Virus record (IMG/VR): IMGVR_UViG_3300046665_000413
Location: 1 to 29,886 of that record
Source of the DNA: a virus
Length of the DNA: 29,886 bases
Reading direction: 5' to 3' (one strand)
Below the pieces are notes generated by a model. That model was not told the origin of the DNA, searched no databases, and saw nothing but the letters and a program-made list of their open reading frames with translations. Position numbers and translations under genes: made by a program. Position 1 is the stretch's first letter; each line of letters begins with the position of its first letter. Shown piece after piece: positions 136-27,878 of the stretch.

Positions 136-678
136 GCTTTGCGTGGTGGCGAGTAGAGCGTTTCTCCTTCCCTGGACTAAGCAACCCGGGGTTCTCTGCA
201 GAATTGCTTAACCCCTTCTGGGGCATGATGAAGTATAATGTAACGACAACGTTACTAGAAGTAATGAAACATTCTTCGAAGTTGTCTTCGCCTACGGCGA
301 ACCCCAGGGACCGAGATGCTCTGGGGTACGACATCCCAGCTCGAACTTATACTTAACTATATTGAAGAGCTGCAGGTCTCGTGACATCAATACCGCATGA
401 GTTCATCATGAACACGGCCTTCGGGTCGCACAGAGTTTGAAGTATCAAACTGGTTTAAAATTTGCCGCCTAGGTTGATAGCCAGGGAGGGTAATCAAGGC
501 CAGAGAGTATCTGAAACAGTGCTCTACGTTGCTCTTGCCAAAAGCAAAAGCAAAATCTTTACCCAGCTGGGGCTGGGTAAAACTAATTCTGAGCTTAGAT
601 GTTACCGACGGGTCTCATCCTAACTTAGGTTAATTAGTATTAACCAGGTTGGTTCTGCACAGAATGTGTTCAAGCTAC
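136..678 (+). ncRNA. Gene-free, hairpin-dense stretch: candidate large structured RNA
   Basis: No credible gene lies here. The sequence is packed with near-perfect hairpins: CCCC-TTCT-GGGG (212-223), GTAACG-ACAA-CGTTAC (240-255), TTCGCC-TAC-GGCGAA (287-301), CCCCAG/CTGGGG (302-307 with 321-326), GTTCA/TGAAC (401-413), CGGCC-TTCG-GGTCG (415-428), GTTTGA-AGTA-TCAAAC (435-450), a 10-bp stem with one mismatch (529-538 with 544-553), TTACCCAG/CTGGGTAA (559-580) and GGTTAAT/ATTAACC (628-645). This density, with GNRA- and UUCG-like loops, suggests a folded RNA rather than a leader. Its position next to tRNA-like and Y-like RNAs in a phage recalls the large ornate GOLLD and ROOL classes, but I cannot assign it to either. 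Boundaries are arbitrary: the stop codon on the left, the first Y-like module on the right. Confidence 0.5.
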
Positions 679-734
679 GAGAGCCGCCGAACTGGATTAT
701 CGGCCAAAAATCTTCCAGTTCAATATTCGCTTTC
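679..734 (+). ncRNA. Y RNA-like module 0 (short, promoter-distal)
   Basis: An outer stem GAGAGC (679-684) pairs with GCTTTC (729-734) through one G-U. CCG follows at 684-686, then a perfect 8-bp second stem GAACTGGA (689-696) with TCCAGTTC (714-721). TTATC directly follows that stem (697-701). This is the Ro60-binding layout of Y RNAs, but the usual CTTTG before the 3' strand is missing. It lies upstream of the promoter at 752-760, so it would belong to the transcript of the preceding structured region. It is the weakest of the eight modules. Confidence 0.55.
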
Positions 735-751
735 AATAATTTAGAAGTTAA

Positions 752-760
752 TGGTATAAT
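752..760 (+). promoter_or_regulatory. Extended -10 promoter for the Y RNA array
   Basis: TGGTATAAT is a perfect sigma-70 -10 hexamer (755-760) with the TGn extension. It ends 7 nt before the first base of the outer stem of Y module 1 (768), which is where transcription should begin. No good -35 hexamer is visible at 17 nt, as is acceptable for extended -10 promoters. Initiation here would give Y module 1 an exact 5' end. Confidence 0.65.
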
Positions 761-767
761 AGATTTA

Positions 768-831
768 GTGAGCCGTTCTTATGTTGGGTTATCAATTGGT
801 GATTACTCCCCGGCATTACTCTTTTGCTCAC
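768..831 (+). ncRNA. Y RNA-like module 1 (minimal, 64 nt)
   Basis: The outer stem GTGAGC (768-773) pairs perfectly with GCTCAC (826-831). CCG sits at 773-775, and the second stem runs 781-788 with 809-816 (8 bp, two G-U). TTATC (789-793) follows immediately, and CTTTTG precedes the 3' outer strand. Human Y1 has the same order: CCGA, a stem, GAGTTATCT, and ACTTG before the closing strand. The loop is about 20 nt with no tRNA-like domain. Module 5 shares the identical outer stem, so the two look like copies. The probable partner is the Ro60 protein encoded at 2074-3705. Confidence 0.8.
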
Positions 832-850
832 TCACGCTTTAATCCTCGTA

Positions 851-881
851 TTGATTCTAAAGAGTCAGTACCTGATTTAAA
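851..881 (+). promoter_or_regulatory. Possible second promoter in the long 832-885 spacer
   Basis: The 54-nt spacer before Y module 2 is much longer than the other linkers. It contains TTGATT (851-856) and, 19 nt on, TTTAAA (876-881) preceded by TGA, a weak extended -10. Initiation about 7 nt later would fall at the start of the module 2 outer stem (886). The hexamers are poor matches, so this is a suggestion only. Confidence 0.25.
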
Positions 882-885
882 GTTT

Positions 886-1016
886 ATGGACCGATAGAAT
901 GGGTTATCTAACTCCAAGACGCAAATACAGGTTCGAGTCCTGTACTCCGCTTCTGTTGCGGAGTTCATCTAATTGGCAGGATGGCGACTCCTGATTCCAT
1001 TCGATTACTTGTCCAT
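886..1016 (+). ncRNA. YrlA-like Y RNA with circularly permuted tRNA-like domain (module 2)
   Basis: The outer stem ATGGAC (886-891) pairs perfectly with GTCCAT (1011-1016). CCG is at 891-893, the second stem GAATGG (897-902) pairs with CCATTC (997-1002), TTATC is at 904-908, and ACTTG precedes the 3' strand as in human Y RNAs. Inside is a tRNA body read in permuted order. The T arm is ACAGG, loop TTCGAGT, CCTGT (927-943). The 3' acceptor strand ACTCCGC (944-950) is joined by a 7-nt loop (951-957) to its perfect 5' partner GCGGAGT (958-964). A D arm follows, ATCT/GGAT (967-982), with TTGG in the loop. The open anticodon end joins the Y stem. No CCA is encoded. This matches bacterial YrlA RNAs, in which a tRNA-like domain is tethered to the Ro60-binding stem. 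Confidence 0.85.
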
Positions 1017-1025
1017 CCCTCTTTC

Positions 1026-1089
1026 ACGGGCCGTTAGAATATCGATTATCTATCTTACAGGCAAACTCGATATTCACTTCTTTGCCCGT
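1026..1089 (+). ncRNA. Y RNA-like module 3 (minimal, 64 nt)
   Basis: The outer stem ACGGGC (1026-1031) pairs perfectly with GCCCGT (1084-1089). CCG is at 1031-1033. A perfect 9-bp second stem GAATATCGA (1037-1045) pairs with TCGATATTC (1067-1075). TTATC (1046-1050) opens the loop, and CTTTG precedes the closing strand. The stems differ in sequence from modules 1 and 5 but pair equally well, which is covariation-like evidence that structure is selected. Spacers of 9 and 10 nt separate it from its neighbours. Confidence 0.8.
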
Positions 1090-1099
1090 TTCAAGTTTC

Positions 1100-1269
1100 A
1101 AACGAACCGAACGTACTAAGGGTTATCTACTTCGACTAGTTAGAACGAAAGCATTACGTAGTTTCTGGAAACAGAATAGTGCCTGAGTCTAATACTGCTA
1201 TACTCTGCTTGAGCTAAAGCTATTGTGGGATGAACTCCCATATCTCCCTTGTCAATCACTTGTTCGTTT
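1100..1269 (+). ncRNA. Y RNA-like module 4 with a distinct 120-nt insert
   Basis: The outer stem AAACGAAC (1100-1107) pairs perfectly with GTTCGTTT (1262-1269). CCG is at 1107-1109, the second stem AAGGG (1118-1122) pairs with CCCTT (1246-1250), TTATC is at 1123-1127, and CACTTG precedes the 3' strand exactly as in human Y RNAs. The insert is not an obvious tRNA mimic. It has a hairpin GCATTA/TAGTGC (1151-1156 with 1177-1182) that contains TTCTG-GAAA-CAGAA (1163-1176), and another, TGGGA/TCCCA (1226-1240). The stretch 1183-1225 may form the rest of a junction. No GTTCRA-type T loop is present. Confidence 0.7.
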
Positions 1270-1278
1270 TTTCAGTTT

Positions 1279-1341
1279 GTGAGCCGTTTAGAATTGGGTT
1301 ATCCTTTTAAGATACTCCCCCAGTTCATTTCTTTTGCTCAC
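1279..1341 (+). ncRNA. Y RNA-like module 5 (minimal, 63 nt)
   Basis: The outer stem GTGAGC (1279-1284) with GCTCAC (1336-1341) is identical to module 1, as is the following CCGTT. The second stem GAATTGGG (1291-1298) pairs with 1319-1326 (8 bp, one G-U). TTATC is at 1299-1303, and CTTTTG precedes the 3' strand. The loop differs from module 1, so this is a diverged duplicate rather than a recent copy. Linkers of 9 nt lie on each side. Confidence 0.8.
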
Positions 1342-1350
1342 TTCAATTTT

Positions 1351-1480
1351 ACGGACCGTTAGTATTAGGTTATCTACTTTTGGGAAGTCGGGACGTTGGT
1401 TCGAATCCAACTGCAGCCTTGAGGGTTGTATAGCTTAGTGGATAGAGCACGTAACATTTCCTAGTACGCCTTTTGTCCGT
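1351..1480 (+). ncRNA. YrlA-like Y RNA with circularly permuted tRNA-like domain (module 6)
   Basis: The outer stem ACGGAC (1351-1356) pairs with GTCCGT (1475-1480). CCG is at 1356-1358, and the second stem runs 1362-1369 with 1460-1467 (8 bp, one G-U). TTATC is at 1370-1374, and CTTTTG precedes the 3' strand. The permuted tRNA body has a T arm GTTGG, loop TTCGAAT, CCAAC (1395-1411). The 3' acceptor strand TGCAGCC (1412-1418) is linked by TTGAG to the 5' strand GGTTGTA (1424-1430; 7 bp with G-U pairs). The D arm GCTT/GAGC (1433-1448) has the loop AGTGGATA containing the conserved GG. T and D arms match canonical tRNA consensus, but there is no anticodon arm and no CCA. It is the second clear YrlA-type module here and is only distantly similar in sequence to module 2. 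Confidence 0.85.
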
Positions 1481-1493
1481 TTCAGTTTTAAAT

Positions 1494-1609
1494 ACAGAGC
1501 CGCTTTAATTAGATTATCTTCTCCTATATCGAAGGACTGCCCAGAGGGGGCTCTCGAAAGAGACGGGTTCGACTCCCAGTCTAAACATCTAGTTATACCT
1601 TTGTTCTGT
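1494..1609 (+). ncRNA. Y RNA-like module 7 with a non-permuted mini-cloverleaf
   Basis: The outer stem ACAGAGC (1494-1500) pairs with GTTCTGT (1603-1609), one G-U. CCG is at 1500-1502, and the second stem TAATTAGA (1506-1513) pairs with TCTAGTTA (1588-1595). TTATC is at 1514-1518, and CTTTG precedes the 3' strand. The insert folds as a contiguous four-way junction: acceptor-like stem GGACT (1534-1538) with AGTCT (1578-1582), hairpin GCCC-AGAGG-GGGC (1539-1551), hairpin TCTC-GAAA-GAGA (1552-1563), and a T-like arm GGG-TTCGACT-CCC (1565-1577). Unlike modules 2 and 6, the tRNA mimic here is attached through its acceptor stem, not its anticodon arm. Confidence 0.7.
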
Positions 1610-1992
1610 TTCCCATGACCTTTCGTATTTTGCTTTGAAGTTTGAAAGTAACCATAGAGTAACTCTGTGGGTTTATCTTTCTCCGACGTACGTTGCGTAC
1701 TACAAGGTTCCGCTGCGCTACACCATGTACTACTCCACTCCCTTCGGAGATCTGGCCAGGAGACATCCCAGCCATGAGGTCAGGTCATGACCGCAGTACT
1801 CGCATTAGACTTACGTATCAAAGCAGTTTAGATTGCTGGCTTAGAGTAACTCTAAGTTATAGCTTTCCGCCCAGTGTCGGCTTCGCCTCTACTGGAGCGG
1901 AGATGATGAAGGAGGATCTGCTTCACCAGGGCCCTGGGTAACCAGGATCCCAGTTCACCTCCAACATCGCATGTGGTAAGTTAGCAGTACAC
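1610..1992 (+). ncRNA. Structured, gene-free tail of the Y RNA transcript
   Basis: No convincing gene is present; the open frames on both strands cross strong hairpins. Visible stems: CCATAGAG-TAA-CTCTGTGG (1652-1670), flanked by GAAAG (1644-1648) and CTTTC (1677-1681); CTTAGAG-TAA-CTCTAAG (1840-1856); CCGC-CCAGT/ACTGG-GCGG (1867-1900, capped by GGC-TTC-GCC); and GGAGG/CCTCC (1911-1915 with 1958-1962) enclosing CCTGG-GTAA-CCAGG (1933-1946). The first two hairpins share the same apical 11-mer AGAGTAACTCT. The region ends at an intrinsic terminator, so it is probably a further noncoding RNA or the 3' part of the array transcript. The Y signature (CCG...TTATC) is not repeated here. Confidence 0.45.
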
Positions 1993-2032
1993 GAAGGCCT
2001 GTTTCCAACCCGGATTCAGGCCTTCTTTTTTT
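1993..2032 (+). terminator. Strong intrinsic terminator ending the RNA region
   Basis: A perfect 9-bp stem GAAGGCCTG (1993-2001) with CAGGCCTTC (2017-2025) is followed by seven T residues (2026-2032). It lies between the RNA array and the Ro60 ribosome-binding site, so Ro60 expression needs read-through or a promoter I cannot see. Confidence 0.9.
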
Positions 2033-2073
2033 AGTGTTTTAAAACTTTGTTCCCAATCCAAAAGGAGCCTCAA

Positions 2074-3705
2074 ATGTCTTTCAATACCCTCGCAAAGAAT
2101 ACGAATACCCGAGTAGCAGCACGTACCACACCGCAGAACAAGCCTGCTGGCAATGCACCTGTAGCACAGGTTAAGAACAACGCTGGTGGCTTTGTGTTTG
2201 AGATCTCTGGCATTCAAAAGCTGGATCGATTCCTCATCATCGGCACGAGCGGCGGTACGTTCTATGCTAACGAAAAGGATCTCACGAAGCAGAACACTGA
2301 CGAGATCGTGGCTCTGATCAAGGCTAACGGCAAGGTTGTGGTTGACCGTGTGGTTGAGATCAGCCAAGCCGGTCGTGCCAAGAACAATGACTATGCGCTT
2401 CTGGTCATGGCTCTGGTCTTCACCCACGGCGATGTTGCAACCAAGATGTATGCAAAGGATAAGTTGAACCTCGTGGCTCGTACTGGCACGCACTTCATGC
2501 ACTTCGTTGCATTCTCAAATGGGATGCGAGGTTGGGGCCGTTCGCTTAAGAGCGTAGTTCAGAACTGGTATTCCTCGAAGGATACCGATAAGCTGGCATT
2601 CCAGATCGTGAAGTACAAGCAACGTGACGGCTGGTCCCACAAGGACATCATGCGTCTGGCTCACGTTAAGCCTGGTACTGATCCGGTTCGTCAGAACCTG
2701 TACAAGTTCATCAACAAGGGTTCAGAGTCGCTGACGCAAGGTGACCTCGTGCCTCAACTTCTGATTGCTGCAGAGCAAGCCAAGACTGCAGATACGAAGA
2801 CGTTGATCAAGCTGATCCAGGATTTCAAGCTCACGCACGAAATGATCCCGAATGAGCAAAAGAATGACCCGAAGGTTTGGGAAGCTCTCGTGCCTCACAT
2901 GGGTCTGGGTGCGCTGGTTCGTAACCTGAACAAGCTCACGGCAGTTGGTCTGATCAAGCCTTTCTCGGAAACGAGCAAGATTGTCAGTGTCAAGCTTCAT
3001 GACGTAGAAGCAATTCGTCGTGAACGCCTACATCCTATGTCCATTATCGTAGCCCAAAAGGTTTACGCAAAGGGTCAGGGGGATAAGGGTTCGCTTGTAT
3101 GGTCACCTGCACGCAACATCGTGTCGGATCTGGAAGATGCGTTCTATGTTTCGTTTGAAGCAGTAGAACCGTCCGGTAAGAACATTCTTCTTGCTCTGGA
3201 CGTATCTGGTTCGATGAGCTGTGCAATCCCCGGAGCGCCACTGTTGAGCTGTGCTGAAGGCACTGCAATCATGGCAATGGTCACAGCTCGTACTGAGCCT
3301 TGGACCGAAATCCGTGGTTTCACGAGCGGTAGGAATGGCTTCAAGGATCTGGGTATCACGAAGAACGATACCTTGGCTACAGCTTGCAGCAAGGTCCGCG
3401 ACAATAACTTCGGTGGAACGAACTGTGCACTGCCGTTCGAGTATGCGCTTCAAAACAAGTGGGACGTGGATGCTGTCTGTGTTTACACGGATAATGAAAC
3501 GTGGTCTGGTGGCCAACACGTGTTCCAAGCAGCACGCAAGTACCGTCAAGGTATGAACAAGCCTGAAGCTAAGCTTATCACTGTTGGTATGGCAGTGAAC
3601 AACTTCAGCATTGCTGACCCGACTGACCGCAATATGCTGGACGTGGTTGGTTTCGATACGGCAACTCCGAGGTTCATTTCGGAATTTGTGGCTGGCAACC
3701 TGTAA
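2074..3705 (+). CDS. Ro60/TROVE-domain RNA-binding protein
   Basis: This is the phage homologue of Ro60/Rsr, a ring-shaped RNP protein that binds Y RNAs on its outer surface and misfolded RNA ends in its central hole. In bacteria it can tether to the exonuclease PNPase through a Y RNA. The protein is 543 aa, close to human Ro60 at 538. The TROVE HEAT-repeat region covers about 40-360 and includes the family signature GWGRSLKSVVQNWY (153-166) and KYKQRDGWSHKDIMRLAH (180-197). The VWA-like C-terminal domain has an intact MIDAS: D376-x-S378-x-S380 in DVSGS, T449 in GGTN and D473 in YTDNE. I chose the ATG at 2074 because AAAAGGAG lies 6 nt upstream; an in-frame upstream TTG at 2047 lacks such a site. 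The eight Y-like modules upstream are its likely ligands. Confidence 0.95.
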   Translation: MSFNTLAKNTNTRVAARTTPQNKPAGNAPVAQVKNNAGGFVFEISGIQKLDRFLIIGTSGGTFYANEKDLTKQNTDEIVALIKANGKVVVDRVVEISQAGRAKNNDYALLVMALVFTHGDVATKMYAKDKLNLVARTGTHFMHFVAFSNGMRGWGRSLKSVVQNWYSSKDTDKLAFQIVKYKQRDGWSHKDIMRLAHVKPGTDPVRQNLYKFINKGSESLTQGDLVPQLLIAAEQAKTADTKTLIKLIQDFKLTHEMIPNEQKNDPKVWEALVPHMGLGALVRNLNKLTAVGLIKPFSETSKIVSVKLHDVEAIRRERLHPMSIIVAQKVYAKGQGDKGSLVWSPARNIVSDLEDAFYVSFEAVEPSGKNILLALDVSGSMSCAIPGAPLLSCAEGTAIMAMVTARTEPWTEIRGFTSGRNGFKDLGITKNDTLATACSKVRDNNFGGTNCALPFEYALQNKWDVDAVCVYTDNETWSGGQHVFQAARKYRQGMNKPEAKLITVGMAVNNFSIADPTDRNMLDVVGFDTATPRFISEFVAGNL

Positions 3706-3728
3706 GTTGTAAGGTTGTAGTAAGTAAG

Positions 3729-3754
3729 AGCCGGGTTTCGATCCGGCTTTTTTT
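3729..3754 (+). terminator. Intrinsic terminator after the Ro60 gene
   Basis: AGCCGG (3729-3734) pairs with CCGGCT (3743-3748), followed by a run of T residues (3748-3754). It closes the Ro60 transcript 24 nt after the stop codon and separates it from the palindromic region. Confidence 0.85.
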
Positions 3755-3765
3755 AGCTTCTGGAG

Positions 3766-4324
3766 AAAAAACTGGACACATGTCCAAAAAACTGGACAAG
3801 TCCGTTTTTTACTTTTCCTTTTAAATCAAGGACTTACAGAGGGTGTGTCCAGTGTGTCCAATTTCTCTAAAAAAAACTGGACAGCTGAAACCATTGCTGC
3901 ATAAGGCTTAGAGCCAGATTGTCCAGTTTTTTTGCCTTTTTTCCAAAAACCATACCTCACTTTCTTTTTGACTAAATAAAAAACAAAAAAGGAAAAACAT
4001 AGGGTTCACCCTAACAGTCCAGGAATATGGGGGTACTATATATATATTTATATTTGAACTTTTAAAAAAATATATTTATATATAAGAGAGTGTTTTCCTT
4101 TTTGGTAAGTTTTTTATTTCTAATAGAAAGTGAGGTATGGTTTTTGGAAAAACACGAAAAAAACTGGACAAAATCGCTGTGAGCCTTATAAACAAAGGCT
4201 TAGAGCCTGTCCAGTTTTTTATTTGGAAATTGGACAAACTGGACAGCAATGCTATAACTCATTGTTTTATATATGTTTTCACGTTTCATAGAAAACGGAC
4301 ATTTCTGGACATGTGTCCAGTTTC
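3766..4324. repeat. 559-nt imperfect palindrome with CTGGACA heptamers; candidate origin or operator array
   Basis: The whole intergenic region is an inverted repeat centred at 4045. The best arms are 25 bp and perfect: 3941-3965, starting TTCCAAAAACCATACC, with 4125-4149. Similarity continues outward to TGGACACATGTCCA (3773-3786) and CTGGACATGTGTCCAG (4305-4320). CTGGACA or its complement occurs at 3772, 3792, 3845, 3877, 3920, 4164, 4208, 4239, 4305 and 4314, with close variants between, often beside A or T runs. The centre (about 4035-4085) is almost pure A/T. Iterons around an AT-rich core suggest a replication origin; a partition site, an operator array or a MITE-like element are alternatives. 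No gene here is credible. Confidence 0.75.
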
Positions 4325-4335
4325 TTGTGATTCCT

Positions 4336-4344
4336 TGGTATAAG
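4336..4344 (+). promoter_or_regulatory. Extended -10 promoter for the metabolic operon
   Basis: TGGTATAAG resembles the TGGTATAAT of the Y RNA promoter and lies 24 nt upstream of the deaminase ATG, at the outer edge of the palindrome. No clear -35 is seen. It is placed to drive the tightly packed operon 4369-9719 and could be regulated by whatever binds the adjacent CTGGACA sites. Confidence 0.4.
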
Positions 4345-4368
4345 AGGGACGTACAGTAGGGGTAAACC

Positions 4369-4737
4369 ATGAATAGTAGACTGATAGATAAACTTAAAAG
4401 GTTGGCCCTTGACTCAGCTCAACCTGAAACTGGTAGGTATCGGATAGCAGCAGCAGTCCTTGATCGCAAGGGTAAAATTTTAGCCACTGGAACTAACTCA
4501 TACGTTAAGACCCATCCTCTTCAAGCTGAATACGCTAAGAAGACTGGCAACGGTCATCGTCACTGGCTACATGCTGAGATAGCTGCTTTAGTGAAAGTAA
4601 AGAATGGACTACCTGCCAAGATAGTAGTCGTGAGGGTTGGCAACGCTGGTGAACTAAGACTGGCTAAGCCCTGCTCCGTATGTGAGATGGCTATCAAACA
4701 GGCAGGAATTGAATCAATAGAATATACGGTAGGTTAA
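4369..4737 (+). CDS. Zinc-dependent deaminase of the cytidine/dCMP deaminase fold
   Basis: The 122-aa protein has the hallmark zinc site of the cytidine deaminase superfamily: H68-A-E70, with E as proton shuttle, and P101-C102-S-V-C105. Spacing and length fit a minimal single-domain deaminase. N-terminal strands (YRIAAAVLDRKGKILATGTN, 24-43) match the usual beta hairpin. The substrate cannot be read from sequence; free cytidine, dCMP or another nucleobase are possible, and a dUTPase in the same operon supports a role in making dUMP for thymidylate synthesis. It is first in the operon, downstream of the extended -10 at 4336-4344. The ribosome-binding site is weak (AGGGGT). Confidence 0.8.
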   Translation: MNSRLIDKLKRLALDSAQPETGRYRIAAAVLDRKGKILATGTNSYVKTHPLQAEYAKKTGNGHRHWLHAEIAALVKVKNGLPAKIVVVRVGNAGELRLAKPCSVCEMAIKQAGIESIEYTVG

Positions 4738-4741
4738 AGAG

Positions 4742-5476
4742 GTGACTAACGAAGAACTATTAGGAAATATACAGGGGTATCTATCTGATTATTTCCGCGG
4801 AGGAGACGTACGAATAAGAGACGTCATACTTCCAGGCCAAATTTTCGATCACAGCAGAGTTAGAGTATCGTTTAATTACATAGGAATATCCGCCCCTGGG
4901 GAATATTTCAACATAGAAACAAGTATTGATGCTTATATGATGGAATATGTGACTGGAGATGCAGTCATGCGCGTATGTCGAGAGATTACTGAAGGGATTA
5001 ATAGACACAGGAGAGAGTACATGGCACAGTGGAATCAACGTCAAGACCAACGTCTTAGACAACAGGAAGATCAAAGACGTGTGGCTCGTGGGCAGCAACC
5101 GGTAGAGCCTCAGGCAGAATTTCCAACAGCAGATGATCCGTGGGGTGGCACTGCTGCGGTAAATTCTATTTACAACGAATACCTCAGAGCTAGGGATGTT
5201 CACTTAAACAGGTTTCAGACTACTCCACTTACTACATCTGCTTCGCCTAATTGGTATAGCATATCTACTAATTCCACTCAGGCCCAATTTCAAGAACCTG
5301 TTCGAACTCACTCTTTTACAGAAGATCAGTTAAAGGCAATGCTTAAAAGCATGCTTAAGGACAATCTCGATCTCCGCATTAGCATGACGGAATCAGATGG
5401 AGAAGTCAGTGTTGAAGCAGAGATCTTCTTGGATGGTGAACTTCTAATTTCAGACTCAGACTCTATTCAACTATGA
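4742..5476 (+). CDS. Unrecognised 244-aa protein
   Basis: I do not recognise a family. It probably starts with GTG at 4742, with AAAGAG just upstream, 4 nt after the deaminase stop. The N-terminal half (1-95) is a compact mix of hydrophobic and charged residues. A strongly charged coiled-coil-like Q/R/E stretch follows (about 98-125), then a low-complexity linker rich in Ser, Thr, Asn and Gln. The C-terminal module (about 190-244) is acidic, with alternating hydrophobic residues typical of beta strands (DLRISMTESDGEVSVEAEI). It overlaps the DHH gene start by 4 nt (ATGA), so the two are probably translationally coupled. A minus-strand frame here is a shadow. Confidence 0.7.
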   Translation: MTNEELLGNIQGYLSDYFRGGDVRIRDVILPGQIFDHSRVRVSFNYIGISAPGEYFNIETSIDAYMMEYVTGDAVMRVCREITEGINRHRREYMAQWNQRQDQRLRQQEDQRRVARGQQPVEPQAEFPTADDPWGGTAAVNSIYNEYLRARDVHLNRFQTTPLTTSASPNWYSISTNSTQAQFQEPVRTHSFTEDQLKAMLKSMLKDNLDLRISMTESDGEVSVEAEIFLDGELLISDSDSIQL

Positions 5477-6339
5477 AAACAGTTATTCTTTACCATTCTT
5501 CCTGCATGGATGGAACTGGTGCACGCTACGCTGCGTGGAAGAAGTTTGGTGATAATGCAGAGTATTTCGCATGTCAGTATGGTCAATCTCTTCCAGAGTT
5601 TAAAAAGGGTCCTGACATTCAAGTCTTCCTTTTAGATTTCAGCTTGCCAACCAAGACTGAATTAGAGGCTCTAGGAGAGGCTTGTGGAAGAGTTGTGGTA
5701 CTCGACCACCATGCGACTGCACGAGAGGCACTGGAGGGCTGTAAAGGCGTAGAAACAGTATTTGACATGAACAGGTCAGGTGCAGTTATCGCCTGGGAGT
5801 ACTTCCACCCCGAATCTGAGACCCCGATGCTTCTGGAATATGTTCAAGACCGAGACCTGTGGAAATTCGATATGGTCTTCAGTAAGGCTGTCCATTCAGG
5901 GCTTGGACTTCTCAAGGGCCGTATGGAAGCTTGGAATAACTATGCTGAGAACGAGGATGAGATAAACAAACTCATCGACATCGGCAATACCTTGCTCCAG
6001 CAACAGAAGCAGATCGTTGAAGCAGCAGTGCCTAAGACTGTCAAGGTCGTACGCTTTAACAAGTACAACGCAGGCATTCTCAACACAGGTGAGTTCGTAT
6101 CCGAAAAAGGTGCTGCAATCTGTGAGGATAAAACGCTTAACGTTGATCTTGCAATCATGTGGTTTGTGACCAAAGACAATCAAGTAATCTTGTCAATGCG
6201 TTCACATAAAGACAGTGGCGTTAACGTAGCTGAACTGTGTAAAGCATTTGGAGGCGGGGGGCATCCTAACGCTGCTGGTTGTAGAGTTGATTTCAAAACC
6301 CTTGAACACATCCTTAACGACGAATGGTGGACTGAATAA
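5473..6339 (+). CDS. DHH/DHHA1 phosphoesterase (NrnA/RecJ-like)
   Basis: The 288-aa protein has all DHH-superfamily motifs: HSSCMDG with D13, LLDFS with D55, the name motif D78-H79-H80 in VLDHHAT, and QDRD with D126/D128 as manganese ligands. The C-terminal DHHA1 substrate-binding motif GGGGHPNAAGC is at 260-270. Relatives hydrolyse short RNA oligonucleotides (NrnA nanoRNase), cyclic dinucleotides or pAp; the size is that of single-module NrnA-like enzymes, not RecJ. A phage could use it to recycle nanoRNA or degrade cyclic-nucleotide defence signals; sequence alone does not decide. Its ATG overlaps the upstream stop (ATGA), and its TAA overlaps the next start (TAATG). Confidence 0.9.
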   Translation: MKTVILYHSSCMDGTGARYAAWKKFGDNAEYFACQYGQSLPEFKKGPDIQVFLLDFSLPTKTELEALGEACGRVVVLDHHATAREALEGCKGVETVFDMNRSGAVIAWEYFHPESETPMLLEYVQDRDLWKFDMVFSKAVHSGLGLLKGRMEAWNNYAENEDEINKLIDIGNTLLQQQKQIVEAAVPKTVKVVRFNKYNAGILNTGEFVSEKGAAICEDKTLNVDLAIMWFVTKDNQVILSMRSHKDSGVNVAELCKAFGGGGHPNAAGCRVDFKTLEHILNDEWWTE

Positions 6340-21246: not shown

Positions 21247-21894
21247 ATGAATTATTCACGTATATACAGTAATCTTATTTTAAGAGCCCAGGTTAGAACT
21301 TTAGCCGAAGACGTCTACACAGAGAGCCATCACATTGTACCGAAATGCATTGGCGGAGATGATTCTAAGTCTAATTTAGTCGAACTTACGCCTGAAGAAC
21401 ACTTTTTAGCACATCAACTACTAACGAAAATACATCCAAATGAATATGGGCTAATCAAAGCAGCGAATATGATGACCGTAGTTGGTAACGGTCAAAAACG
21501 AAACACTAATAAACTGTTCGGATGGCTGAGAAGAAAACATTCAGAGGCGTGTAAAAATATGCCTCAAGAGCAGAGAGATAAAATAGCTGAATCGCTACGA
21601 GGTAGAGTACAAACAGAGGAACATGTTAAAAACATGATATCTGGCAGAGCAGGATATAGACACTCCCAAGAAACTATAGAAAAAATTAAAGCGTCTAATA
21701 AAGGACTCAAGCGATCAGAAGAAGCGAAGAAAAATATAGCAGCTTCTAAAGTCGGCAGACCTTCTCATAGAAAAGGTACTAAACATTCAGAGGAGTCTAA
21801 ACTTAAAATGTCTTTAGCAAAGACTGGTAAAAAATACGGCCCCAGAGGGCCGTATAAAAAGAAAGTTACAAGCACTTCCGTTCAAGACATCTGA
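21247..21894 (+). CDS. HNH homing endonuclease with NUMOD3 DNA-binding repeats
   Basis: The 215-aa protein has an N-terminal HNH nuclease (ESHHIVPKCIGGDDSKSNLV, 26-45) with H28/H29 and N43, then the metal-site His in EEHFLAHQLL. From about 118 onward there are NUMOD3-type repeats: HSQETIEKIKASNKG, RSEEAKKNIAASKVGRP and HSEESKLKMSLAKTGKK, which bind DNA. It is antisense to the surrounding late genes and is typical of free-standing phage homing endonucleases that spread by cutting alleles lacking them. Its 3' end overlaps the next minus-strand gene by 13 nt. Its target is probably an allele of the adjacent structural genes. Confidence 0.9.
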   Translation: MNYSRIYSNLILRAQVRTLAEDVYTESHHIVPKCIGGDDSKSNLVELTPEEHFLAHQLLTKIHPNEYGLIKAANMMTVVGNGQKRNTNKLFGWLRRKHSEACKNMPQEQRDKIAESLRGRVQTEEHVKNMISGRAGYRHSQETIEKIKASNKGLKRSEEAKKNIAASKVGRPSHRKGTKHSEESKLKMSLAKTGKKYGPRGPYKKKVTSTSVQDI

Positions 21895-27038: not shown

Positions 27039-27878
27039 GTGTCTATTTTAAATAAACAATACATTTGCAGCTTGAACCAAATACTCGATAACTGTGTATT
27101 TGTCTGTCAACCTACCAGAGGTATCCCTCTAGGAGATTTTAAAGTATCTGGTGTGTACGCCATATTGAATACATATAATTCAAAGATTTACGTCGGACAA
27201 GCGGTAGATCTTAGGAACAGATATGAAAACCACTTTTATAGATTGAAAGCAGGAACTAGTAAAAATAAACACCTACAATCGGCCTGGGACTTATATGGCG
27301 AAATCAATTTTAGATTTTATATTCTTGAAGTATGTGAGATTGAACATTTGAACCAAAAAGAACAAACACTACTTGACACGTTTTTTGGAGAATTTTCTTA
27401 CAACATGTGTCCAATTGCTAATTCTAGTCTAGGGTTTAAACATGAGGAGTCCACTATTCAGAACTTGAGAACAATTGCTACCTCTGAAGAATCTAGAGAA
27501 CGTAAATCAAAGATAGCAACTACTATGTGGAAAAACACAGAGCATCGAAATCACATTTCTAAATTAGCGTCTTCTCAATGGGAAAATGAAGAGTATAAAA
27601 ACTACATGTTTACTAAAAGAGACGAATATTTAAATTATGAGAAAGGTAAGAAAGCTCTAAGTAATAAAAGCATTTCTCAATGGCAAAATGAGGATTACAG
27701 GGCTAAGTTTGACAAAACAATATCGGATAAGCGAGCTTCTAGATTGGCTCACCTATCGGAGAAAGAAAGAAATAAGGAAGAGACCCGATTAGCAAAAAGA
27801 AAAATAGCTAATGATAAGTACTTATCCAAGAAAAAAGCAGAGCGTGAAGCCCTGCTTTCTAATAACCCTGCTATTTAG
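27039..27878 (+). CDS. GIY-YIG homing endonuclease
   Basis: The 279-aa protein has the nuclease signature GVYAI (38-42) and KIYVGQ (49-54), the catalytic-region R59 in DLRNRYENH, and the downstream conserved helices (HLQSAWDLYG, then FRFYILEVCE). The rest is a very basic, Lys/Glu/Arg-rich helical tail with repeated SQW(E/Q)NE(E/D)Y motifs (SSQWENEEYKNY, ISQWQNEDYRAK), a likely DNA-binding array. It starts with GTG. It is antisense between baseplate J and a baseplate gene, and its stop overlaps the next minus-strand gene by 8 nt. Like the HNH gene it is a selfish mobile element. Confidence 0.9.
   Translation: MSILNKQYICSLNQILDNCVFVCQPTRGIPLGDFKVSGVYAILNTYNSKIYVGQAVDLRNRYENHFYRLKAGTSKNKHLQSAWDLYGEINFRFYILEVCEIEHLNQKEQTLLDTFFGEFSYNMCPIANSSLGFKHEESTIQNLRTIATSEESRERKSKIATTMWKNTEHRNHISKLASSQWENEEYKNYMFTKRDEYLNYEKGKKALSNKSISQWQNEDYRAKFDKTISDKRASRLAHLSEKERNKEETRLAKRKIANDKYLSKKKAEREALLSNNPAI

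Follow-up and report, generated by a model that had tools for sequence, protein, structure and literature searches.

An array of eight putative Y RNA modules with tRNA-like and other heads beside the Ro60 gene of a phage

Introduction

The bacterial Y RNAs so far known are small, and to our knowledge the function of bacterial and phage Y RNAs is known for one or two species only. YrlA and other bacterial and phage Y RNAs were reportedly treated by Chen et al. in 2014 (RNA 20:1715), a study known to us through the papers citing it and reported to be the earliest description of Y RNAs from phages. Here we describe a locus in the viral record IMGVR_UViG_3300046665_000413 of IMG/VR (positions 1 to 29,886, the whole of which is called the window below), in which an array of eight modules, M0–M7, lies beside the phage's own Ro60 gene. 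The modules are almost certainly Y RNAs of the bacterial and phage type.

In bacterial Y RNAs the outer stem holds the protein Rsr, and tethering of PNPase is possible (PMC8394870); for Deinococcus radiodurans the tethering of Rsr, Y RNA and PNPase has been shown experimentally (PMC8394870, PMC4726728). DusA and TruB modify YrlA (PMC8394870). According to one proposal its tRNA-like domain competitively inhibits an anticodon nuclease, and YrlA itself was reported to be uncut (PMC7790460). A Listeria phage has three non-coding transcripts of very high abundance at most 2 kb from an Rsr-like gene, and these are suspected Y RNAs (PMC12282133). As cited in PMC12282133 and PMC7765460, Y RNAs near Ro60 were already known from phages.

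The Y module array

The search used a descriptor for the frame of Y RNAs with the following elements in order: an outer stem of 6 bp or more with C as its last base, CCG, 7–17 nt, an inner stem of 5 bp or more that abuts TTAYC or TTAAC, the inner 3' strand, 3–17 nt and the outer 3' strand. When both strands of the 29.9-kb window were searched, exactly eight modules were found, all on the + strand at 679–1609 (Table 1), with no further match on either strand. Dinucleotide shuffles of positions 601–1620 gave 0.01 matches on average. Because the window itself had served as the pattern for this descriptor, independent covariance models were made from distant loci alone: R1 was trained on 40 short modules and R2 on 23 tRNA-like modules, the training sets containing no sequence of the window's family and their members being chosen with the window-inspired descriptor.

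On the whole window R1 detected only M3 (35.8 bits, E 1.3e-5), M5 (35.4 bits) and M1 (32.8 bits), and with the filters off on 600–1700 also M0 (11.1 bits). The inner stem was partly misaligned in alignment A3, so R1 understates it. R2 detected only M6 (73.5 bits, E 1.7e-15), M2 (49.2 bits, E 7e-10), M4 (18.7 bits) and M7 (12.5 bits) in the window. The models of the distant loci recovered seven modules, five of them strongly, and M0 weakly. Rfam gave no match in the window at gathering cut-offs, and positions 120–2035 include no gene-like reading frame. ARAGORN found no tRNA in the window, so that ordinary tRNA genes can be ruled out for the modules.

Pairwise covariation in MAFFT alignments gave 28 compensatory against 75 broken changes, counts which were spoiled by misaligned arms, and the clean covariation test is that of the M4 alignment. 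There 39 pairs were present, 14 of them with changes on both sides, and 91.5% of the cells were paired; none of 500 shuffles was as good, and at most 44% were paired when slid.

The first-pass annotation of this DNA had proposed eight Y RNA-like modules upstream of a phage Ro60 gene, and the descriptor, the shuffles and the distant-loci models bear out their place, number and motif. Its motif details hold, including the lack of CTTG in M0 alone. The statement that the stems differ between modules needs correction for M1 and M5, which have the same outer stem (GTGAGC/GCTCAC). The proposed keeping of pairing as the sequence changes is supported, most cleanly by the M4 alignment. Absent from the annotation were the permuted tRNA-like domains of M2 and M6, the tRNA-Lys loop of M5 and the covarying domain of M4.

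Heads of the modules

The loop of M5 is an exact match to the tRNA-Lys(UUU) anticodon loop, that of the phage's own tRNA-Lys included, and it is unchanged in four other loci although the flanking stem varies. Among the other short modules, M0 scored higher with R1 in relatives (40.9 bits in L026 and 34.0 bits in L024), and the hairpin of M1 was by eye tentatively taken as D-loop-like.

In M2 and M6 the tRNA-like domain is permuted: the T-arm is followed by the 3' strand of the acceptor, a loop, the acceptor's 5' strand and the D-arm. M6 starts with an anticodon-like hairpin, ACT-TTTGGGA-AGT, with the loop of tRNA-Pro(UGG), and this loop varies among the relatives. As copies of the phage's own tRNA genes M2 and M6 were rejected, only short motifs being in common.

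The covarying insert of M4 comprises 118 nt and was not met with in sequenced phages. An rRNA mimic was considered and dismissed, as no match exceeded the reversed control, and also an origin as a copy of the phage's own tRNAs was ruled out by comparison.

Survey of Ro60 loci

Loci for the survey were drawn from cultured phages, IMG/VR contigs and GTDB genomes. Over 178 loci the descriptor matches were almost all on the Ro60 strand, and shuffled survey loci gave 12 matches in 1.52 Mb; over 166 loci R1 gave 224 matches at E ≤ 0.5, every one of the 224 on the Ro60 strand. With descriptor and R1 pooled, at least one module was found in 126 of the 168 loci, mostly 1–3, including 7 of 11 named phages, 5 of 5 loci of the window's family, 50 of 73 other viral contigs and 64 of 79 genomes. 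Arrays of the window's family have 7–8 modules, and at least seven were found in the unrelated loci L098 (nine; about 11 with R2), L066, L114 and L132. Eight modules are thus near the top of the range yet not unique, and the kind recurs. The array is kept in four other phage lineages, with modules gained and lost. Cultured phages with smaller sets of Y modules include the Bxz1-type phage LinStu of M. smegmatis (L012) and A3Wally of Microbacterium foliorum (L013). In the relative L008 (about 4140–4570; 3110–3568 in L025) an HNH endonuclease-like frame was seen by eye within the array, replacing M6/M7.

For the display of tRNA loops, 7-nt loops were counted that sit on a stem of 3 bp or more beside UUAUC, and they were compared with the loops of 622 real tRNA genes from these loci. 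Among the short modules, 19 of 95 showed the loop of a real tRNA (shuffles 0.94, maximum 4 in 1000; reversed 0), of which five are M5 and its relatives, so that the independent count is lower. Inserts of 31–130 nt did so in 23 of 138 cases (1.9 in shuffles, maximum 8). The counts, somewhat weakened since the rule was framed after examples had been seen, but with strong controls, support the view that display of real anticodon loops may be a general rule for many Y RNAs. A complete anticodon stem-loop opens 28 of the 63 permuted tRNA-like Y modules (4.7 in shuffles), which places the permutation point between the D-arm and the anticodon arm.

Other pieces of translation RNAs were also found. 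Inserts of L053 (6041–6107, 46.9 bits) and L132 (6015–6087, 36.8 bits) are tRNAs in the normal order. Six modules match helix 69/71 of the 23S rRNA, five with 97–100% identity over 29–30 nt (E 6e-10 to 7e-13) and one with 87.5%. In L146 (3712–3777; R1 45 bits) the sarcin-ricin sequence AGTACGAGAGGAC stands immediately after UUACC. The exact helix 69/71 motif is also present in L152 and a partial one in L134; the loci with copies of helix 69/71 belong mostly to myxobacterial genomes. The sarcin-ricin loop AGTACGAGAGGA occurs in the module loop of L146 and, next to the Y modules of L053, in a hairpin at 5784. The bacterial Ro60 and Y RNA loci L129, L144 and L150 lie within dense arrays of tRNA genes.

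Transcription signals and the Ro60 gene

Transcription from the promoter-like site is predicted to start on the first base of M1 (about 767), and M0 lies 5' of the site. A generic promoter scan missed it owing to the poor -35. The spacers from M2 through M7 are 9–13 nt long and AU-rich, with a frequent TTCARTTT core. Spacers of 8–14 nt separate the majority of the modules in this array, and the same holds for several arrays unrelated to it. The longer spacer between M1 and M2 is a possible processing site. No terminator was found within the array by a terminator scan.

The Ro60 gene is intact, with Pfam scores of 119.9 bits for TROVE and 186.6 bits for vWA_Ro60. The protein thus combines the two domains with the MIDAS residues of Ro60/Rsr proteins (D376/S378/S380, T449 and D473), which are all invariant. 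Its residues K180/R184/H197 align with K170/R174/H187 of Xenopus Ro, and the nearest solved structure is D. radiodurans Rsr, 2nvo (phmmer E 1e-111). The expectation of an intact MIDAS-bearing Ro60 in a phage setting was thereby supported by domains and residues, and that of an array exceeding the usual number of Y RNAs by the survey (eight against mostly 1–3). The array had also been placed directly upstream of Ro60: it does adjoin the gene, but a conserved terminator lies between them and M0 is 5' of the promoter-like site.

Neighbouring elements and tRNA content

Four structured non-coding elements, A–D, flank the array. They include 65 pairs with compensatory change, two alignments together, and have no Rfam match. 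They are built alike, with a closing stem and with GUAU towards the 5' side and AUGWG towards the 3' side, and C and D also have a hairpin resembling GAGUAACUC; one of the motifs is confined to the window's phage family within IMG/VR. From Ro60 to the next gene (3760–4330) there is a long imperfect inverted repeat, about 68% over 400–480 nt, which is kept in relatives. A DHH/DHHA1 phosphoesterase gene, possibly a small-RNA exonuclease, is located 1.8 kb past Ro60 (5473–6339). Frames on the + strand at 21247–21894 and 27039–27878, among structural genes of the - strand, are by eye like HNH and GIY-YIG homing endonucleases.

The twin contig G001 has about 21 tRNA genes, at 26–36 kb and 46–48 kb (L188, L189), and three cultured phages with Ro60 and Y RNAs have 27–46. 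One tRNA of the twin contig has the anticodon CTA and is a possible amber suppressor. Strict recoding of amber stops was rejected, as 2 of the 39 window genes end in TAG.

Table 1. Features of the locus and selected modules of other Ro60 loci
Feature	Position	Strand	Evidence
Structured non-coding element A, 5' of array	224–410	+	Alignments
Structured non-coding element B, 5' of array	434–676	+	Alignments
M0, short Y module, plain loop, without CTTG, weakest	679–734	+	Descriptor; R1
Promoter-like site TTTCAA-18-TATAAT	731–760	+	Sequence; kept in L004, L007, L008, L026, by eye
M1, short Y module with AATTGGT as loop and ATC/GAT beneath it	767–832	+	Descriptor; R1
M1–M2 spacer, can form hairpin	833–885	+	Arms vary in relatives, by eye
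M2, Y module whose tRNA-like domain is permuted: T-arm, acceptor of 7 bp (ACTCCGC/GCGGAGT) and D-arm	886–1016	+	R2
M3, short Y module, plain loop	1026–1089	+	R1
M4, Y module with non-tRNA multi-helix insert: GAAA-capped helix and two hairpins	1100–1269	+	R2, on frame
M5, short Y module, TATC-CTTTTAA-GATA, tRNA-Lys(UUU) anticodon loop	1279–1341	+	R1; exact tRNA loop
M6, Y module whose tRNA-like domain is permuted: anticodon-like hairpin, T-arm, acceptor and D-arm	1351–1480	+	R2
M7, Y module with T-arm, acceptor-like partner upstream (unpermuted)	1494–1609	+	Descriptor; R2; relative L024 3443–3551
Structured non-coding element C, plan as A/B	1615–1788	+	Alignments
Structured non-coding element D, plan as A/B	1808–1982	+	Alignments
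Intrinsic terminator GAAGGCCTG/CAGGCCTTC and T run, between array and Ro60	1993–2032	+	9 pairs, 43/45 cells paired, 2 compensatory
Ro60 (TROVE and vWA), 543 aa	2074–3705 (ATG 2074, stop 3705)	+	Pfam
Intrinsic terminator 3' of Ro60	3726–3751	+	Terminator scan
Helix 69/71 modules	L129 2408–2593; L144 2909–3078; L150 5847–6017; L169 6010–6172; L173 5732–5978; L132 6280–6483		
Permuted modules opening with anticodon stem-loop, examples	L069 3836; L125 3444; L140 3707; L012 3170; L066 1204		

Discussion

The reading preferred here is that one transcript would be cut into Ro60-bound Y RNAs, the heads of which would engage tRNA enzymes as tether or decoy. As a whole it is given a probability of roughly 0.55, and its mechanistic part about even odds. 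M1–M7 would be transcribed as one RNA starting at M1 and ending before Ro60, and this precursor would be cut in the short AU-rich spacers into separate Y RNAs; the promoter-like site, the AU-rich spacers and the terminator together would fit such a single precursor. Each Y RNA would bind one Ro60 ring via the frame, i.e. the outer stem, CCG and UUAUC abutting the inner stem, usually with CUUG before the closing strand. Each head would then attract or distract tRNA-acting enzymes, whether a host exonuclease, a tRNA-modifying enzyme or an anticodon nuclease. Sequence alone does not tell tether from decoy.

Several points weigh against this reading. M0 and M7 are weak with the independent models. 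A terminator stands between array and Ro60, so that they would not simply form one mRNA. M4 is unlike tRNA or rRNA, and the tRNA-like heads are not derived from the phage's tRNA genes beyond short motifs. Six related phage contigs, possibly incomplete, gave neither a PNPase-type ring exonuclease (RNase_PH domain) nor RtcB; with no phage PNPase in these, any such partner would probably be the host's.

Chance resemblance or decayed tRNA genes can be practically discounted: the initial claim rested on motif-level likeness alone, but such an origin is contradicted by the shuffle, strand and independent-model tests and by covariation. Also improbable is one long multi-Y RNA that would string several Ro60 rings together instead of being divided into separate RNAs. 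The spacers of merely 9–13 nt and the array without an internal terminator would suit it, but the AU-rich spacers with the recurring TTCARTTT core and the hairpin-capable long spacer look as processing sites would, and the known bacterial Y RNAs are small. A role as tether or gate only is a tentative possibility, to be reckoned with but not expected; the heads would bring host PNPase or another exonuclease to Ro60, and the phage would degrade structured host RNA in a RYPER-like manner, the tRNA likeness being a mere handle. It has a precedent in the Rsr, Y RNA and PNPase of D. radiodurans (PMC8394870, PMC4726728), and PNPase is present in most bacteria (control genomes), so that a phage copy would be unnecessary, but it leaves the eight different heads, the exact anticodon loops and a loop fixed over five phages unexplained.

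That the anticodon-loop and tRNA-like heads would act as decoys, titrating anticodon nucleases or other tRNA-cutting host defence and thereby shielding the tRNA pool, is doubtful. The exact tRNA-Lys(UUU) loop of M5 speaks for it, tRNA-Lys being the target of PrrC, and so do the richness in tRNAs of the phages with Ro60 and Y RNAs and the copies of 23S helix 69 and of the sarcin-ricin loop, a ribotoxin target, on other Y heads. An inhibitor role was also proposed earlier for YrlA, but YrlA itself was reported uncut (PMC7790460), and the stem of the M5 loop has just 3–4 bp. A wider and rather unlikely idea is that Y RNAs might be a general display frame for translation-RNA mimics (anticodon loops, whole tRNAs permuted or normal, helix 69, sarcin-ricin). 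In that case Ro60 would hold the RNAs of the present array as sensors of, or decoys against, the host nucleases that attack such molecules; M5 would be directed at nucleases cutting the tRNA-Lys anticodon, and M4 at an unrecognised target. If the survey pattern holds, Ro60 would be tied to surveillance or defence of the translation machinery in bacteria and phages. For the function of bacterial and phage Y RNAs, the eight heads, including the unchanged anticodon loop and the new conserved domain, lead to the testable question of which enzyme reads each head.

Comparison with known systems

As in bacterial and phage Y RNAs, a Ro60 orthologue adjoins the array on the same strand, all eight modules have the outer stem, CCG and the inner stem abutting UUAUC (by the descriptor, and by R1 and R2, with M0 and M7 weakly), and the locus includes at least one tRNA-like domain (M2 and M6; R2 49 and 73.5 bits). 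With this group, including YrlA (RF02553), the locus has in common the position beside Ro60, the outer and inner stems, CCG/UUAUC and the permuted T-acceptor-D order of M2 and M6. From the YrlA type it differs in the eight modules, the anticodon stem-loop in the short M5, the domain of M4 and the unpermuted T-arm of M7, and the gathering cut-off of Rfam YrlA (69 bits) was not reached by M6 (30.1 bits, E 5e-4) or by relatives (44.9 and 43.6 bits).

The first-pass annotation had likened the modules to human Y1 in particular. The order CCG, UUAUC and CUUG in an outer-stem/inner-stem frame is indeed that of vertebrate Y RNAs (RF00019), but the phage heads are tRNA-like, and within 300–2200 RF00019 gave no match even up to E 10, so that kinship with Y1 in particular was not supported. 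As they fell below the YrlA cut-off and did not match vertebrate Y RNA, the modules were not filed under either family; the measurable kin are the bacterial and phage Y RNAs.

With the RYPER of D. radiodurans the locus shares a Ro60 orthologue, closest to 2nvo, and Y RNA, but here there are many Y RNAs, and no phage PNPase was found in the six related contigs. The large arrays of L098 (a phage contig), L066, L114 (Armatimonadetes) and L132 (Anaerolineae) are alike in having at least seven modules beside Ro60, partly with close spacing, and differ from the window in their unrelated sequences and other sets of heads. By its number of modules and its combination of heads, those of M4 and M5 above all, this locus appears to stand apart within the known kind.

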